Source of the DNA: Nitrospirota bacterium
Lineage (GTDB): Bacteria; Nitrospirota; Thermodesulfovibrionia; Thermodesulfovibrionales; UBA6898
DNA length: 64,000 bases
Direction: 5' to 3'
Assembly (NCBI GenBank): GCA_021783515.1
Contig: JAJXTV010000001.1
Span: 1-64,000 of the forward strand
A model generated the notes under the pieces. The model was not told where the DNA came from. It did no database searches and saw nothing but the letters and a program-made list of their open reading frames with translations. The position numbers and the translations under genes are program-made. This document shows, piece by piece, positions 9,436 through 51,334 of the stretch (position 1 is the stretch's first letter; each line of letters begins with the position of its first letter).

Positions 9436-10047
9436 CTACTTCATCGCTTCGTATACCTTGCCAACCATCTTCGCCGATGGCTTAAGGGTCTTGTCGCCCT
9501 CTTGCTTCCAGCCCACCGGGCAGGCCTCATCGCCGTGAGCACCCATATACATGTTGGCCCGCACCTTCCTGAGCAGTTCCTCGATGTTTCTGCCGAGATT
9601 ATAGAAGTTCACTTCCGAATTGAGCAGTGTGCCTTCGGGGTTTATGATGAATGAACCCCTCAACGCCAGACCGGTTGCGCTGTCATAGACGCCGAACATC
9701 TTAGAGACGCAGCCAGTCGGATCTGAGCCCATCGTATATTTCACCTTTTCGAGCAATTTTTCGTCCCTCTGCCAGGCAAGATGGACGAATTTAGTATCGG
9801 TGCTGACGGTGATCACCTCCGCCCCCGCCTCTGCGAATTTGGCGTGCAGCTCTGCCAGAGCCGCGAACTCCGTCGCTCAGACGAAGGTGAAGTCGGCGGG
9901 ATAGAAAAACAGCACGGTCCATTTCTTCTTTCCCTTGAGCCCCTGGAGGGTAACCTCTCCAAAGTCGCCCTTCGCAGGCTCATAAGTTTCCAGCTTGAAA
10001 TCAGGGACATTCTCCCCGACCCGTAACCCGCAACAATGCTCTCCCAT
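9436..10047 (-). CDS. Selenocysteine-containing 2-Cys peroxiredoxin (UGA at 9877-9879)
   Basis: Reading through one in-frame UGA gives a 203-residue AhpC/Prx1-type peroxiredoxin. The UGA is residue 57 and falls at the peroxidatic position: FYPADFTFV-U-ATEF, where relatives have FVCPTE or FVCATE. The resolving Cys in EACPVGW (about residue 175) is kept. The protein reduces hydrogen peroxide or organic peroxides using thiol donors. The ATG at 10047 has AAAAAGGAGG upstream, and without readthrough the product would be a dead 56-mer. A hairpin core starts 12 bases after the UGA. It is third in an operon headed by the promoter near 10800. Sec-peroxiredoxins are known, mainly in anaerobic bacteria. 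Confidence 0.93.
9850..9864 (-). promoter_or_regulatory. Probable bacterial SECIS core in the peroxiredoxin mRNA
   Basis: GCGGCTCTGGCAGAG begins 12 bases after the UGA and folds as a short hairpin (CTCT/AGAG with flanking pairs) with a G-rich loop. The same 15 bases occur after the UGA of fdhA. The location fits the SelB-binding SECIS of bacteria, which lies inside the coding region just 3' of the UGA. Confidence 0.6.
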
Positions 10048-10125
10048 ATTCTCATCCTCCTTTTTGACTTATAATTAAAGCTTACTATGAAATGGCGGGG
10101 CCTGATAGCCCCGCCCTGTCACATG

Positions 10126-24072: not shown

Positions 24073-24681
24073 TTAATTCTTCTTTCCCGAATCCTTCAGT
24101 TCCTCCTCCACCGCCTTTTTCAGATACTCATAGGGGACGTCTCCGACGATCTTCCTGCCGTTGATGAAAAAGGTCGGCGTGTTATACAGATCGAGAGAAA
24201 GTGCGAGCTTCACGTCCCGGTCGATCTCTTCCCGATGTTTCTTCCGGTCGATCGACTCGATGAATTTCTTCATGTCGAGCCCCAGTTCCCTTGCGTACCC
24301 GATGAGACTGTCACGGTCGAGTTTGGGGGATCTCTTCAGGAGCAGATCGTGCATCTCCCAGTATTTCCCCTGGTCTCGGGCGGCAAGAGCCGCCTCGGAG
24401 GCAATAAAAGAATAATCGCGGTACTTATACGGGTAGTTCCTGATAGCGAGCCGTATCTTGCCCCTGAACGTATCGAACAGTTTTTCGACGACCGGACCGG
24501 CCGCCTTGCAGTGCGGTCACTGGAAGTCGAGGAATTCTATGATCGTTACCGGCGCGTCTTTCGGCCCCTTTTCCGGCGAGTCGCCGACCGGCACGCGGTA
24601 GCGCTGCAGGTCGGCAAATGCCGGCAGACACATCATGAGGACCAAGACAACCGCGGTCGGGGAAATTGCTCTTTTGCTCAT
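24073..24681 (-). CDS. Selenocysteine-containing DsbA-like thioredoxin-fold protein (UGA at 24517-24519)
   Basis: 202 residues if the in-frame UGA (codon 55) is decoded. A signal peptide (about 1-22) is followed by APVTIIEFLDFQ-U-PHCK, where relatives have the CPxC active site, so the motif is U-P-H-C. The cis-Pro region is intact (LYNTPTFFINGRKI, ~residue 172). It is probably periplasmic and works in thiol oxidation or disulfide exchange. The start has GGAGGTGGCG upstream. It follows the formate dehydrogenase genes on the same strand, 62 bases after the NrfD-like gene. Confidence 0.9.
24489..24503 (-). promoter_or_regulatory. Probable SECIS hairpin of the DsbA-like gene
   Basis: CGGCC-GGTCC-GGTCG starts 13 bases after the UGA. 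It forms a 5-bp stem (one G-U pair) with a GGUCC loop, resembling the GGUC loop of known bacterial SECIS elements. Confidence 0.55.
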
Positions 24682-24701
24682 CGCCACCTCCTTCCGGACG
24701 A

Positions 24702-24730
24702 CCCGGCGGAGCATAGCACGCTCCACCGGG
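24702..24730 (-). terminator. Hairpin between the NrfD-like gene and the Sec-DsbA-like gene
   Basis: An 11-bp stem (CCCGGTGGAGC / GCTCCGCCGGG, one G-U) has a 7-base loop and no T-run. It probably gives partial termination or mRNA processing within the operon rather than a full stop. Confidence 0.45.
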
Positions 24731-24743
24731 CCGCGGTCATATC

Positions 24744-25877
24744 TCAGCGCCCGGTCTTCGCCCCAGCCGGATGAAACACGGGAAGATACATCGCCGCCAG
24801 TCTATAGAGGAAGATCGCCAGAGACACGAGTCCGATCGTGATCGCAAACTCCTTCCATGTCGGGAAATAACTCGCTCCCGAGCTGGTCTGCGCGAAGAAG
24901 GTGACATTGAAACGGTTCATCACGATGCCTGCGATGACCAGCGAAACCGAAAGCAGGGTGCCGTTGACAGATTCCCGAGTCGATTTCATCGACAGAAGTA
25001 TCATCGGCAGCACGACGCCTACGACGATTTCGATGAGAAACGCCGTGGACGCGGCGCCCCCTTGAAAGACCATCGGCATCGCTCCCCTCACGATGAGATC
25101 GGCCACCCTCACCGCGAGATAGACCAAAAGCGCGATCGACGTACCCTTCCCGAGACCCGAAACGATCTCCTTTTCCTGTTCACGCCCGAAGGCCCTCGCG
25201 CTGACTACGGACTCGAAGGTGACCATGGCCAGCCCGAGCGCAATGGCCGACAGATAGAAGAGCTGGGGGATGATCGGGGAGTACCAGATCGGATTGAGCT
25301 TTGCCGGGACGATGAGGAAGAAGGCGCCCAGGGACGACTGGTGCAGATAGGAGAGGATAATCCCGGCGATCACCAAGGGGAAAGTCAACCCCTTCATCAC
25401 CTTCAAAGCCCCTGTCCATCCCCACTTCTCCAAGAAGGCCGATGAAAACTCAAGCGCGAGCACAGTCGTGTAAAGGGTGATGCACCAGACTACCTCGAAC
25501 ATGATCGAATGGTGGTTCCACATGACAAGTGGATGCCAGAAACTGAGGGGCTTTCCTATATCTACGATCAGCCCGACGATCACCATGAGATATCCGATGA
25601 AGGCGGTCAGCACCGCCGGCCGCGCGATCGGCTTGTACTTTTTCATGTTGAAGATATAGACCGCCGCAGTGACGGTGAAGCCCCCCGCGGCAAGCGCCAC
25701 GCCGGAGAGGACGTCGAAGCCGACCCATAGCCCCCAGGGGAAATTGTCCTGCAGGTCGGTCGACGCGCCGAGACCGAAGGCGAACCGGTAGATCGCCGCG
25801 TATGCTCCGATCGCCATCAGGACGAGCAGGACGATCGTTCCTCCGCTCAGGAATGAACCTGTCTTTTTCGTTTCCAT
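24744..25877 (-). CDS. NrfD/HybB-type integral membrane subunit
   Basis: 377 residues from ATG 25877 (GGAGGGATAACG upstream), with about ten hydrophobic helices. NrfD-type subunits pass electrons between the periplasmic Fe-S subunit and membrane quinones. With the two upstream genes it forms a three-subunit formate dehydrogenase whose anchor is NrfD-like rather than the cytochrome b of E. coli FdnI. Confidence 0.88.
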   Translation of the reverse strand: METKKTGSFLSGGTIVLLVLMAIGAYAAIYRFAFGLGASTDLQDNFPWGLWVGFDVLSGVALAAGGFTVTAAVYIFNMKKYKPIARPAVLTAFIGYLMVIVGLIVDIGKPLSFWHPLVMWNHHSIMFEVVWCITLYTTVLALEFSSAFLEKWGWTGALKVMKGLTFPLVIAGIILSYLHQSSLGAFFLIVPAKLNPIWYSPIIPQLFYLSAIALGLAMVTFESVVSARAFGREQEKEIVSGLGKGTSIALLVYLAVRVADLIVRGAMPMVFQGGAASTAFLIEIVVGVVLPMILLSMKSTRESVNGTLLSVSLVIAGIVMNRFNVTFFAQTSSGASYFPTWKEFAITIGLVSLAIFLYRLAAMYLPVFHPAGAKTGR

Positions 25878-26699: not shown

Positions 26700-29600
26700 C
26701 TACAGCTTTTCGACGTTGACCATGAAGGCCTTCGTCTCGGGGATCATCGTGTTGGAATCGCCGATCGTCGGGGTGAGCAGGTTTGCGCTGTCGCCGCCGC
26801 TTCCGTCGGCGGGCCACTGCCAGCCGAAATGCCAGGGCAGCCCCACCTGATGCACCGTATTGCCGGCGATCTTGAAGGGTTTCAGCCTTCCGGTGACGAT
26901 CGCCTTCGCCCAGAGCTCTCCCCGGGCGGAGGAGACCCTCACCTTGTCGCCGCTCTTTATCCCCTTCTCGACCGCGAGCTCTTTGCTGAGTTCGAGAAAA
27001 ACCTGGGGCACCATCTCGAGTTGCCAAGGCTCATGCCTCGTCAGCACACCGGTCTGCCAGTGCTCCGAGACGCGATAGGTCGTGGCGACGAAAGGATACC
27101 TCACATCGCAGGAGGCGAAGATGTCCTCGGGCGCGACCTTCTGGCCCTCCTTCGAATACCAGAGCTTGATAGTCGGGCTGTTGTACTGCTTCGACATCGG
27201 ATTTTCCTGTATCGGGCATTCCAGAGGCTCGTAATGCTCGGGAAAGGGACCGTCCGCAAGCCCCGGCCCGAATATCGATCCGACCCCGTCGGGCTTCATG
27301 ATAAAGGGCAGTTTGCCGCCCTCCGCAGCCAGCGGCGGGGCGGGCCCGTCAGGAACGTCCCCCTCCCATGTCCCCGGCTTATTGGTGGCGGGGTTGATCT
27401 TCGAGGGGTTCCACTTCAGCACGGGACGCGCAGGGTCCCACGGCCTGCCCTGGGAATCGACTGCGCAGCGGTTATAGATGATCTTTCTGTTTACCGGCCA
27501 GGCCCAGGCCCATCCGGGAAAGAGGCCAAGACCGGTGGGGTCGGCCTTTTCCCTTCGCGCCATCATGTTGACGGGCTTCCCGTCCTTCTGCGTATAGCTT
27601 TGCGAATAGAGCCAGTTGCCGCACGTCGTGGTGCCGTCGTCCTGCAGGTTTACGAAAGAGGCGCAGAGATCTCCCTTCCTGGCGATAAGCTTCGGCGGCA
27701 CCGCCTTCTTGTCGTAGAGGTCTTCGAGATGGTAGCCGTTGATCTCCATGGCGATCTTGTGCGTATCAACCTCTTTAACCTTGCCTTCCGCGCCCTTCTC
27801 GCCGTAGTCCCAGGTGAGATTGACGATGGGATCGGGGAAGGCGCCGCCCTGCTTTTGGTACATCTTCCTCACCCTGAAGAAGAGCTCGTTCATGATGTCG
27901 GAATCGGACTTCGACTGGCCGACCGGCTCAATCGCCTTATATCGCCACTGCGCCAGCCTCCCCGAATTCGTAATGCTCCCTTCCTTCTCGACCGAGAAGC
28001 AGGCCGGGAGCATGAAGACCTCGGTCTGGATGTCCTTCGGATTCATCCCGGGGCCCCGCCAGAACGAGCCGGTTTCGTTATCGAAAAGGTTTACGTTCAC
28101 CATCCATTTGAGCTTCGAGAGCGCCTTTCTCACCTTACCGGCGTTAGAGCCGGAGCATGCGGGGTTCTGGCCCCATGCGAAGAAACCCTCGAACTTACCC
28201 TTGAACATCTGGTCGAAGAGAACGAGCCACGAGCCGTTTTGGCCTTCGTCGAGCTTGGGGAGCCATTGATAACCGAAGTCGTTGTCCTTCGTCGCCTTGT
28301 CGCCGTAAATCGCCTTCAGATAGCTCGCCATATATTTGGGCTTGTTCGACCACCAGTTAACGCTCTTTGTCTCCTTCGTCTTGGGGGTATTCTTGTCGTT
28401 GTAGGTTGCAAGATCTGTCCATGAGGCGGTCGGCGTCGCGAGATAGCCCGGAAGAGTGTTAAACAGAAGTCCATGGTCGGTCGAGCCCTGCACGTTCGAT
28501 TCGCCCCGGAGCGCATTCACGCCCCCTCCGGCCATGCCGATATTGCCCAGGAGCATCTGGATGATCGTCATCGCCCGTATGTTCTGGGTGCCTATCGTAT
28601 GCTGGGTCCAGCCCATGGCGTAGCATTCCGTACCGGCCTTGTCGCGGACCCCGGTGGATGCATACAACCGGTAGACCTGAAGAAGCACGTCCTTCGGCGT
28701 CCCGGTGATCTCTGAAACCTTCTCGGGCGTGTATCGTGAATACTGCCTCTTCAGGAGCTGGAAGACGCAGTGCGGGTCCTTCAGCGTCCGGTCCTGTTTC
28801 GGGACGCCGCTCGCATCGAGCTGGAAGGCCCACGTCTTTTTGTCGTATTTCCTCGTTTTCGGGTCATAGCCCGAGAAGAGGCCGTCGAGGTCCGTGCAGG
28901 TTTTGAAATCTGGATTGACGAGAAAAGGGGCGTTCGTATAGTTGACGATATATTCCCTGAAGTACATATCGTTGCCCAGGATGAAGTTGATCATGCCGCC
29001 CAGGAAGGCGATATCAGTGCCCGAGCGCATCGGGGCATAGAGGTCGGCCTTTGCCGCGGTCCTCGTGAACCGGGGATCGACAACTATCAGCTTCGCACCC
29101 CTCTGCTCGCGCGCCCTCTGGATCCATTTCATCGAGACCGGGTGGTTCTCGGCGGGGTTTGCGCCCATCACCAGCACTACGTCGGCATTCTTGAGGTCCA
29201 CCCAGTGGTTTGTCATTGCACCGCGACCGAACGACTCTGCCAGAGCCGCAACAGTGGCGGAGTGTCATATTCGGGCCTGATGCTCGATATATACGAGTCC
29301 CCAGGAACGAAGGAGCTTCTGGAGCAAGTAGCATTCCTCGTTGTCGAGGGCGGCACTGCCGACGTGGGCAATCGCATCGGTCCGGTTCACTACAAATTCC
29401 TTCTCGACCTCCTGCTCCTTTCCGTCGGGGGTCTTTTCCTTTACCTTGGTTTTGGATTTTGACTTGAAGGTCCTGTCGCGGACGTCCTTGATCTTCTTTG
29501 CGATCTCATCGAGCGCCCACGCCCATTCGACCTCCTTCCAGTCGGTCGCGCCGGCCGCACGGTACATCGGCCTCGTGAGCCGCGTCGGATTGTTAACGAC

Positions 29601-29876
29601 CTGATAGAGGGAAGCCCCTTTCGAACAGAGCGTCCCCTCGCTGATGGGGTGGTCGGGATCGCCCTCGGCATCGATGAGCCTGCCGTCTTTCGTATAGGCG
29701 AGGATGCCGCAGCCGACCGAGCAGTAGGGGCAGATCGTCTTGGTCACCTTGGCGTCCCTTATCCGCAGCTCCTTCTCGGAGGCGGCAGCCTCCTGCGGAG
29801 ATAAACCGGCGCCGATCGCGCCCGCCACCGCCGTACTGCCTGAAAGCTTCAAGAAATCACGTCTCGATACATCCAT
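26700..29876 (-). CDS. fdhA: Formate dehydrogenase catalytic subunit, selenocysteine (UGA at 29265-29267)
   Basis: 1,058 residues when the UGA at codon 204 is read as Sec: HQARI-U-HSATVAALAESFGRGAMTNHW, the exact active-site context of Mo/W formate dehydrogenases. An N-terminal Tat signal (SRRDFLKLSG) directs it to the periplasm. A 4Fe-4S site starts with CPYCSVGCG (49-56). It oxidises formate at a bis-pterin Mo or W centre. It is the first gene of fdhA, Fe-S subunit, NrfD anchor, DsbA-U. Confidence 0.96.
29235..29249 (-). promoter_or_regulatory. SECIS core in fdhA
   Basis: GCGGCTCTGGCAGAG begins 15 bases after the UGA. It is base-for-base identical to the core in the Sec-peroxiredoxin gene and encodes AALAE in the same frame in both. 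It folds as a short hairpin. Confidence 0.6.
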
Positions 29877-49031: not shown

Positions 49032-49634
49032 CTATTTCCCCCGGATCCTCGGAAAAAATTTCGGCACCGCCCTCCGGTACTCGATATACTCCTGCCCGAA
49101 GCGGGCCGCAAGCTCTTTCTCCTCGAGCGGTATGACGAAGATGTTGATCACAAGGAAATCGAGGGCGGCAGCGATCCCTACGGCAGCAACCGCGGTGAGA
49201 AAAAACATTCCCGCCAGCATCATCGTATGTGAAAGATAGGTCGGATGCCTCACCACGGAAAAAATCCCTTTCGTCACAAGCCTGTTCGACGCATCAGGCG
49301 ATATCTCCGGAATGCCCATGAGGCCGCGAAGGCTCAGAAGCACTCCGGTTCTGACCTGAAGGGCAACGCCTGCGGCAAGCAGGAGCCCTCCGGCAATACG
49401 CAGCGATAACGGCAGATCAAACCGGTAATGCAGAACCGGCGCCCGATTGTGAAAAACAACATATGCAAGCGGAGGCCAGAGGAGGGCCGGCATAAGATAT
49501 GTCAGCGTGCCGAGACGCCTGAAGATCTTCGGAAAGCCGTGCACCGGTATCCAGAAAAGCGGGATGACCGGCCAGACCATAACCGTGGCGAGGGCAAGCA
49601 GGTCGTTCACATCAATTCTCCGGTTTGCATACAT
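49032..49634 (-). CDS. Isoprenylcysteine methyltransferase-like membrane protein
   Basis: 200 residues with four or five helices and the ICMT/PEMT C-terminal signature VTKGIFSVVRHPTYLSHTMML..., then LEEKELAARFGQEYIEYRRAVPKF. It methylates an unknown thiol or lipid with SAM. Its ATG directly abuts the second MITE-like repeat, which therefore supplies the upstream leader; no good Shine-Dalgarno is seen. Confidence 0.8.
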   Translation of the reverse strand: MYANRRIDVNDLLALATVMVWPVIPLFWIPVHGFPKIFRRLGTLTYLMPALLWPPLAYVVFHNRAPVLHYRFDLPLSLRIAGGLLLAAGVALQVRTGVLLSLRGLMGIPEISPDASNRLVTKGIFSVVRHPTYLSHTMMLAGMFFLTAVAAVGIAAALDFLVINIFVIPLEEKELAARFGQEYIEYRRAVPKFFPRIRGK

Positions 49635-49830: not shown

Positions 49831-50880
49831 TCAACGCCCTTCCCCGATACAACACTGCGGGTCTTCGGCAAGCATATCTCCTTCGCCCGTAGCATGGGAG
49901 AACGCATACGCGATCGCACGGCAGCCCCTGCAGACCGCCCAGCGCATACACCGGCCGCATCTGCCCTTATACCTCGTCCTGTCCCGAAGCGCCTCCAGCA
50001 CCGGCGACATCGCCCAAACCTCTCTTATACGGTCCTTTCTTACATTCCCTATCGGCATGAAGAGTCTCCGGCAGGGGACGATCGTCCCGTCGGGCAGAAA
50101 GGTCAGCCCCGACAGGCCCGCAGCGCAGCCCCCGGTCGCAACGTCTCCCGCGTCGGCATCGACGGAAGCGATAAGCTGCGACGCCACGGGGTCCCCGGTG
50201 ACGACCTCCGGACCCTCAGACTGCAGGGAAAAAATCTCTTTATATATCCGCTCCACCTCTTCTTTACCGATCATCCTGTCGATGAGCCCAAGCCCCCTTC
50301 CGGAGGGGACGAGCCTCGAAAAGCCGAGCCGCTGCACCCCGAGCGATCGCGCCAGATCCACGAGCTCGGTGAACCGTCCGGCATTCAGCCCCGACAACGT
50401 GGCGTTCATCGTCACTCTCAGCCCGGCGTCAAGGAGATGTCTTATCCCCTTTAACGACGAAGAAAAGCTTCCTTTTCCCCTGATCGAGTCATGGACCTCC
50501 TCAGGCCCCTCCATGCTGACCTGGACGCCTTTTACGGAAAGACGGGAGAGCATGGCGGCCCGCTTCTCATCGATGAGCGTGCCGTTTGAAAGGAGGTAGA
50601 GGTCGAACCCCCCGCCGCCTATCGCTTCGAGGACATCCGGAAGGTCGTCCCGCAGAAAGGGCTCGCCTCCGGTAACGCTCATGCTTCGTGAAAAAGAGAT
50701 GCCGTAGACCTCGCTCCAGGTGTCGAGCATCCCGGAGACCTCGTCCACGACGGATGAGATCTCAGCGAGGGAGAGCTCTTCGCTTCTTCCGCCCGTCTGA
50801 TAGCAGTGGCTGCACCTCAGGTTGCAGCGCTCCGTCAGATGCCACTGGATGAAAAACTCATGAGAATTCGTTATCGGCAT
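49831..50880 (-). CDS. Radical SAM/SPASM-type enzyme, candidate maturase of the upstream selenopeptide
   Basis: 349 residues. The radical SAM cluster is TERCNLRCSHCY (~residue 18), with GGEPFLR and a TIM-barrel body. The C-terminal SPASM/twitch Cys set is GGCAAG..., PCRRLFMPIGN, GRCGRCMRWAVCRGCRA and DPQCC, as in PqqE-, NirJ- and RiPP-maturase-type enzymes. No clear ribosome site precedes the ATG; the reading frame of the upstream peptide, if read through all UGAs, would end six bases before it, allowing translational coupling. Confidence 0.85.
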   Translation of the reverse strand: MPITNSHEFFIQWHLTERCNLRCSHCYQTGGRSEELSLAEISSVVDEVSGMLDTWSEVYGISFSRSMSVTGGEPFLRDDLPDVLEAIGGGGFDLYLLSNGTLIDEKRAAMLSRLSVKGVQVSMEGPEEVHDSIRGKGSFSSSLKGIRHLLDAGLRVTMNATLSGLNAGRFTELVDLARSLGVQRLGFSRLVPSGRGLGLIDRMIGKEEVERIYKEIFSLQSEGPEVVTGDPVASQLIASVDADAGDVATGGCAAGLSGLTFLPDGTIVPCRRLFMPIGNVRKDRIREVWAMSPVLEALRDRTRYKGRCGRCMRWAVCRGCRAIAYAFSHATGEGDMLAEDPQCCIGEGR

Positions 50881-50967
50881 TGCATATCATGAGCGCGCCT
50901 TTGCCGGGCGCCTCGACTTATTGTACCACCGCCCCGGAACAATAGGAGAGAGAGGACAAATAACAGA

Positions 50968-51003
50968 GAGGCGGACAGGCAAGCCATGCTCACCGTCCGC
51001 CTC
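50968..51003 (-). terminator. Hairpin between the peptide gene and the radical SAM gene
   Basis: On the minus strand a perfect 9-bp stem GAGGCGGAC / GTCCGCCTC with an 18-base loop is followed by TCTGTTATTTGT. It would give partial termination, keeping precursor mRNA above enzyme mRNA, as is common in RiPP loci. Confidence 0.5.
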
Positions 51004-51012
51004 ACGAAATTT

Positions 51013-51030
51013 CGTTGCCGACCGGCAACG
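51013..51030 (-). promoter_or_regulatory. SECIS-like hairpin of the selenopeptide gene
   Basis: CGTTGCC-GGTC-GGCAACG is a perfect 7-bp stem with a GGUC tetraloop. It begins 18 bases after the first UGA, 9 after the second and 0 after the third. E. coli fdhF SECIS also presents GGU in its apical loop. The overlapping palindrome ACGAAATTTCGT lies at 51004-51015. Confidence 0.55.
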
Positions 51031-51153
51031 TCAGCTCTTTCAGCCCTTTCACTTGTGGCATACCTTGCCAGGGTTTTCCTTCGCCGCCTTCTGAAGTCTG
51101 CTCCAGAAGGCCGCCTCCTTGACAAGAGCCTCTCTGCTCAATGTCTTCTTCAC
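51031..51153 (-). CDS. Candidate multi-selenocysteine precursor peptide (RiPP-like)
   Basis: From GTG 51153, with AGGAGGT seven bases upstream, comes a basic amphipathic leader (MKKTLSREALVKEAAF, then WSRLQKAAKENPGK). The core reads V-C32-H-K-UGA35-K-G-UGA38-K-S-UGA41-R-C43. The UGAs fall at exact three-codon intervals (51049, 51040 and 51031). A GGUC-loop hairpin follows. Hairpin spacing fits decoding of the first two UGAs, with the third as stop (40 residues, coordinates given); full readthrough would end at 50887 (88 residues). It is upstream of a radical SAM/SPASM gene. That the host makes selenoproteins is shown by four others in the window. If no UGA is decoded, a 34-residue peptide ending KVCHK results. 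Confidence 0.6.
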
Positions 51154-51334
51154 CCGTCTCACCTCCTCCTCCCGCGCAGGCCGTAGTCATGATGCTCAAG
51201 GCCCTGCCAAAGGCCTTATTCACACCTTACCTCCCGCCGGGAGAAAGTCAAGGCGGCGGGAATGACGGCAATAAGAATATCCCGGTCAAGGGAGGGACTG
51301 AGGCACGTACGCTCCTCAGGCGCCGGGGTCGCTG

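Follow-up and report, generated by a model that had tools for sequence, protein, structure and literature searches.

A probable precursor gene for a selenium-containing RiPP-like peptide beside a radical SAM/SPASM enzyme in Nitrospirota

Introduction

A 2026 review lists one family of Sec-containing RiPPs (TIGR04081) among 119 prokaryotic selenoprotein families (PMC13188914). The maturase of this system is SbtM, which makes a thio(seleno)oxazole (PMC11002830). The peptide family described here is absent from the inventory of the 2026 review (PMC13188914), which covers Lewis 2021 and Haft and Tolstoy 2025, where it may still be mentioned. If our reading of the locus is true, the family would be a second Sec-containing RiPP family, unrelated to the first and present across at least two phyla.

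The DNA analysed, called the window throughout, comprises positions 1 to 64,000 of the forward strand of contig JAJXTV010000001.1 from a Nitrospirota bacterium (GCA_021783515.1). The window probably encodes the precursor for a RiPP-like peptide that contains selenium, together with a dedicated radical SAM/SPASM maturase; two UGA codons of the precursor are very likely translated as Sec, with a third (UGA41) as the stop.

Results and Discussion

The precursor gene

The precursor gene lies on the minus strand from 51153 to 51031, and the predicted peptide has 40 residues, VKKTLSREALVKEAAFWSRLQKAAKENPGKVCHK-Sec-KG-Sec-KS. Its start codon is the GTG at 51153, which is preceded by a strong ribosome site, GGAGGAGGTGA. 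The peptide is made up of a leader of about 31 residues (MKKTLSREALVKEAAFWSRLQKAAKENPGKV), which contains W and is helix-like, and a nine-residue C-terminal core, C-H-K-Sec-K-G-Sec-K-S, with the motif C-x2-U-x2-U-K-S. Three in-frame UGA codons occur at nine-base intervals in the one message. The standard code ends the frame at residue 34, so ordinary gene callers easily miss the precursor. The features of the locus are as follows.

51154..51175, minus strand: ribosome binding site region GCGGGAGGAGGAGGTGAGACGG, with a similar purine-rich site in 50 of 51 homologues
51031..51153, minus strand: predicted selenopeptide precursor gene, 40 codons and a UGA stop
51049..51051, minus strand: UGA codon 35, predicted Sec1
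51040..51042, minus strand: UGA codon 38, predicted Sec2
51031..51033, minus strand: UGA codon 41, predicted stop
51013..51030, minus strand: SECIS-like hairpin CGUUGCC-GGUC-GGCAACG, perfect 7-bp stem, in the 3' UTR directly after the stop (covariation, RNAalifold, window fold)
50968..51003, minus strand: second strong hairpin (GAGGCGGAC...GUCCGCCUC) between the peptide and maturase genes (fold; whole stretch z -4.8)
49831..50880, minus strand: radical SAM/SPASM maturase, 349 aa (Pfam PF04055 and PF13186)
49032..49634, minus strand: PEMT/ICMT-type methyltransferase, adjoining the maturase

The sequence elements named in a preliminary description of this DNA are all present: the strong ribosome site, the in-frame UGAs, the perfect 7-bp GGUC hairpin and the downstream SPASM gene. 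The short precursor peptide that it proposed is borne out by a conserved small gene in homologues. The motif given there, C-x2-UGA-x2-UGA-x2-UGA-x-C, is right in its letters, but the third UGA is better read as the stop, and the TGC for the last Cys falls in the untranslated hairpin. The gene extent, put at 51153 to 50887, is corrected here to 51153-51031, and the two or three Sec with one or two Cys are settled at two Sec and one Cys.

Comparison with known systems

The SbtA/SbtM system (TIGR04081 'selenobacteriocin' and TIGR04082) resembles this locus in that a radical SAM/SPASM enzyme adjoins a short precursor in which UGA encodes Sec and which has an insertion element close by. A selenobiotic relative that makes a thio(seleno)oxazole would be of the same general kind, and SbtM is among the NCBIfam models that match the maturase, at 133.6 bits. 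This score is nevertheless far below the TIGR04082 cut-off of 350 bits, and the 349 residues align only to the C-terminal part of the 516-position SbtM model, which is much longer than the maturase here. The peptide has no match to TIGR04081 (up to E = 10, with Cys replacing Sec) and no SGUG motif; its core, C-x2-U-x2-U-K-S, is at the extreme C-terminus and its hairpin follows the stop codon. It is therefore improbable that the locus is such a relative, and the earlier impression that the core differs from the Geobacter selenobiotic is supported. As far as sequence comparison can tell, the system works like the SbtA/SbtM type but is not a member of the TIGR04081/TIGR04082 family.

Related maturases (31-36% identity) are found in the ACGX system (TIGR04340 neighbours) and in related systems whose precursors have C-x2-C-rich C-termini, beside peptides with C-terminal CxxC-type runs. 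These precursors contain Cys instead of two Sec and have different leaders, and the maturase here scores 147.9 with the rSAM_ACGX model against a cut-off of 400. PqqE, mycofactocin MftC and AhbD/NirJ share the superfamily and the domain order of the maturase, but it is far below every equivalog cut-off and has another partner peptide. SkfB, CteB and PapB-type enzymes (sactipeptide/ranthipeptide) are fold or sequence relatives of the maturase only.

Decoding of the UGA codons

There are 59 distinct homologues of the peptide, 51 that were compared codon by codon and eight from another phylum. Codons 35 and 38 are UGA in all 51 distinct genes, never UAA, UAG, UGC or UGU, and are also UGA in the eight further homologues. 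At the third position the 51 genes have UGA (30), UAA (15), UAG (4) or a sense codon just before a stop (2). Variability at the three codon positions is 0.156/0.132/0.329 within the frame versus 0.376/0.417/0.454 beyond codon 41. Behind the second UGA, Lys (40/41) and Ser (41/41) are kept and the changes in their codons are nearly all synonymous; single-base differences are 175 synonymous to 5 non-synonymous for Lys and 204 to 0 for Ser, counted over pairs that are not independent. Purifying selection acts on the codons between and after the two UGAs and ends at the third UGA.

The invariance of codons 35 and 38, taken with this coding signature, argues that both are translated and that the third UGA is a stop. 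UGA35 and UGA38 are almost certainly read as Sec, with termination at UGA41, as the preliminary description had it for the internal codons and in one of its two models (40 residues, ending at UGA41). Going by the alignment, the two invariant internal UGAs of the precursor are not a product of chance. The gene for the maturase also ends in UGA, hence this genome uses UGA as a normal stop too. Cys codons (TGC or TGT) at the UGA positions, which had been envisaged for relatives, are found in none of the 59 peptides of the family, which thus has no classical Cys/Sec pair of its own; such Cys forms are the rule for bacterial selenoproteins without being required. Homologues without the UGAs, with sense codons in their place or without the leader had been named as evidence against a Sec peptide, and the outcome of this comparison favours the Sec reading.

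The other model had all three UGAs read as Sec and the frame running to 50887, with three Sec, two Cys and a maturase coupled to the Sec supply. The frame is indeed free of UAA and UAG as far as the maturase, and RCRS/SCRS recurs after UGA41; the recurrence is explained by the hairpin sequence. UAA or UAG takes the place of the third codon in 19 of the 51 genes, which identifies UGA41 as a stop, many homologues stop before the maturase, coding conservation ceases at this codon, and UGA41 is only 7 nt from the hairpin loop. At this locus the model, coupling of the maturase included, is refuted.

The SECIS-like hairpin

The SECIS of Escherichia coli fdhF is a short hairpin that carries GGUC in its apical loop and lies about 20 nt downstream of the Sec UGA. 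The hairpin in the window differs in that it is in the 3' UTR, is placed after a stop UGA and would serve two UGAs. Across 38 different sequences 88.7% of the cells in the stem are paired, and five of the seven pairs have double-sided (compensatory) changes. The covariation score is reached in 0 of 500 shuffles and slid controls are far lower, which bears out the SECIS-type hairpin of the preliminary description. RNAalifold recovers the same stem unprompted. The inner six pairs are kept across homologues and the outermost pair is not, and the loop reads GGUC or nearly so. When the UGA region is folded with a shortened 3' end another structure results; with downstream sequence the minimum-energy fold contains the 7-bp hairpin.

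The published bSECIS rules give a loop of 3-9 nt, a G in the first two loop positions and a distance of 16-37 nt from the UGA (PMC13188914). In the window UGA35, UGA38 and UGA41 lie 25, 16 and 7 nt, respectively, before the start of the loop, with similar spacing in most homologues, and the hairpin agrees with the loop and distance rules for UGA35 and UGA38 and not for UGA41. By the published range, one 3'-UTR element is thus at a suitable distance from both Sec codons but not from the stop. Its free energy is -10.2, the bSECIS criterion being -7.5 kcal/mol or lower. With the upper stem alone, 34 of 51 homologues pass all bSECIS rules including energy; some of the failures are marginal energies or cases in which the script picked another hairpin. 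Three UGAs of one message that are read as Sec, Sec and stop would offer a natural test of how SECIS distance decides between Sec and stop.

In two loci (L032 and L042) the two Sec codons and the GGUC loop are 38 and 47 nt apart, which exceeds the bSECIS distance normally seen, and another hairpin (UCCCGC-AGUU-GCGGGA) lies between these codons and the GGUC-loop hairpin.

The gap between the peptide and maturase genes in the window is 150 nt and includes the second strong hairpin. This hairpin is possibly a terminator or attenuator; a simple terminator scan did not call it. In L031 and the Syntrophaceae-type loci (L249-L257) the peptide stop, the hairpin and the maturase start run together, so that the maturase can only start at or within the SECIS region or the peptide end. 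This arrangement suggests translational coupling of the maturase in those lineages.

Selenocysteine machinery and other selenoproteins

SelA (598.5 bits) and SelB (372.7 bits) are both encoded on the same contig as the peptide, with scores above cut-off. Among relatives, SelA is present in 24 of the 25 genomes that carry a close orthologue of the maturase; the exception, G057, has no selA and has a tRNA-Sec at 71 bits. SelB is found at E 1e-60 or better in 16 of 18 further or distant genomes checked. Two more carriers, draft MAGs like G057, are incomplete in this respect, G312 having neither selA nor selB and G331 having no selB. Three of the features by which a bacterial selenoprotein is recognised, namely a conserved in-frame UGA with flanking coding conservation, the hairpin geometry and Sec machinery in the carriers, are found together here.

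Three other genes in the window are candidate selenoproteins, each followed by a SECIS-like hairpin.

9439-10068, minus strand: peroxiredoxin, AhpC/PrxU-like, TGA at 9879
24091-24801, minus strand: DsbG-like thioredoxin-fold protein, TGA at 24519
about 26703-29800, minus strand: formate dehydrogenase alpha subunit, TGA at 29267 (892.6 bits, cut-off 814.2)

The preliminary description counted four other genes in the window that decode UGA as Sec; these three are supported and a fourth was not identified.

Distribution of the peptide

The hosts of the peptide homologues are Nitrospirota, Desulfobacterota of the Syntrophaceae type and one MAG labelled Deferribacteres. When 296 genomes of the phylum are searched with a profile of the peptide, 38 give a match, and all 38 have exactly two UGAs within the 40-position match. 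The profile also matches further members of the class of the Syntrophaceae MAG (Desulfobacterota), with cores such as CFSUKKUKNQ, CYSUKKUKGK, CLKUKGUKSK and similar. None of the eight homologues from this class has UGA as its final stop.

A candidate with Cys in place of Sec in G029 and G255 (E about 5e-5) was treated as a chance match because in G029, the one inspected, the frame has no near start codon and apparently overlaps another reading frame. A weak match in G027 was rejected, with no sensible peptide and no partner maturase.

The maturase and its pairing with the peptide

The CxxxCxxC motif and the SPASM cysteines C252, C270, C308, C311, C317, C320 and C343 are invariant in the maturase alignment. 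The nearest folds to its AlphaFold model (pLDDT 84) are SuiB, anSME, PqqE and SkfB, which are enzymes that act on peptides or proteins. The maturase passes none of the NCBIfam cut-offs, that of SbtM included, and its best score is with AhbD (175 bits). No RRE domain was seen.

Matches to the maturase at E 1e-60 or better occur in 29 of 61 related genomes, 25 of which have close orthologues (identity 57% or more). The same small gene is found upstream of nearly all these orthologues, which is where the preliminary description proposed to look for the leader. In the 296 genomes both genes are present in 37, the peptide alone in one (G307, at a contig edge), the maturase alone in one (G064, with no detectable peptide) and neither in 257 (Fisher p about 8e-45, with no correction made for common ancestry). 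The pairing with a radical SAM/SPASM enzyme proposed earlier therefore extends to 37 of the 39 genomes with either gene. In G057, G244 and G285 both genes are kept on different contigs, so a functional connection is a better explanation than linkage alone. A single branch of the tree (support 80/79; 83% of bootstrap trees) has all the peptide-associated maturases on the same side. It is likely that the peptide is the substrate of this maturase.

The enzymes of a separate radical SAM/SPASM clade (L033-L036) are 38-41% identical to the maturase and have no such peptide beside them.

Nature of the system and proposed mechanism

A short ribosomal precursor that is linked to a modifying enzyme is the arrangement expected of a RiPP. 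The tiny gene is inherited together with a dedicated peptide-modifying enzyme and so seems to represent a new family of modified peptides that contain selenium; a new seleno-RiPP-like family is computationally well-supported.

The peptide might instead be a small selenoprotein that is left unmodified, a redox or metal-binding peptide with two Sec, with the radical SAM enzyme acting on another substrate. Its C-x2-U-x2-U looks like a redox or metal-ligand motif, a redox function is assumed for most selenoproteins (PMC13188914), and thioredoxin-reductase-like and MerA/Lpd-like flavoproteins are near some maturases. This is unlikely given the one-to-one co-occurrence with the SPASM enzyme even when the genes are unlinked, the RiPP maturases among the nearest folds of the enzyme, and a leader/core layout that is typical of RiPP precursors. 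A regulatory role has also been considered, in which UGA35 ends a 34-residue leader peptide and the remainder is an RNA element or attenuator that controls the maturase, and the strong second hairpin between the two genes would suit such a role. The codons after UGA35 and UGA38 are under selection at the amino-acid level, positions 35 and 38 are never UAA or UAG, and the gene is kept apart from the maturase in G057 (with its hairpin), G244 and G285; a purely regulatory reading frame is hardly credible on these grounds.

For the modified selenopeptide, which we prefer, the following mechanism is proposed. SelB with Sec-tRNA very probably decodes both UGAs by means of the one SECIS hairpin just past the stop codon. 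At UGA41, with the loop 7 nt away, the hairpin would already be entering the ribosome, leaving this UGA to the release factor. The leader is presumably bound by the SPASM enzyme, which may then modify the C-terminal Cys/Sec core. Bond formation from Sec or Cys would be the most likely modification, giving selenoether/thioether cross-links or a heterocycle like that of SbtM. With two Sec and one Cys, the nine residues of the core would put an unusual substrate chemistry on offer, and the case for Se- or S-based bond formation on the core is close to evenly balanced.

Of the roles considered for the product, that of an intracellular cofactor-like peptide, redox-active or metal-binding, is the most likely, ahead of a secreted antibiotic, and its chance is about even. 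An intracellular role appears to fit better than a bacteriocin because the spread looks vertical, export genes are absent and the genes persist when unlinked. Taken as a whole, our fullest proposal is a tentative one: a new RiPP class in which the SPASM enzyme ties the two Sec and one Cys of the core into selenoether/thioether bonds or a metal site, giving an intracellular selenium-containing peptide cofactor of anaerobic bacteria, with one 3'-UTR SECIS and the third UGA as the stop.

Neighbouring genes

Within the flanks read there is no conserved gene for a transporter, a protease, immunity or regulation; RiPP loci often have a conserved protease or export gene, but need not. The PEMT/ICMT-type methyltransferase has homologues close to the maturase in 8 loci of the comparison. 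It matches the methanethiol S-methyltransferase MddA weakly (31.3 bits, below cut-off), and is at most accessory. As candidates for a general operon partner, YceI-like proteins (9 loci), the PEMT-type methyltransferase (8), thioredoxin-reductase-like proteins (10) and MerA/Lpd-like proteins (4) were considered; each turns up in a minority of the loci and none is general.

Related loci with other precursors

A related SPASM enzyme is associated with a different precursor family, ending in C-x2-U-x2-C-K, in L055 (7550 region) and L056 (7388, 4923 and 5811), and both genomes have selA. The L056 locus also contains all-Cys paralogues (SCCSCKSCK, SCRTCRACF). These two loci are possibly a second seleno-RiPP lineage with an internal Cys/Sec pair, and this C-x2-[U/C]-x2-C family is a more distant analogue of the pair that is missing from the peptide family described above. 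They hint at repeated replacement of Cys by Sec in C-terminal motifs of this kind. In L044, L046, L049 and L050, more distant SPASM enzymes have beside them precursor-like ORFs that end in Cys-rich sequences such as CRQCSSCHGCR and GGCGGCGG.
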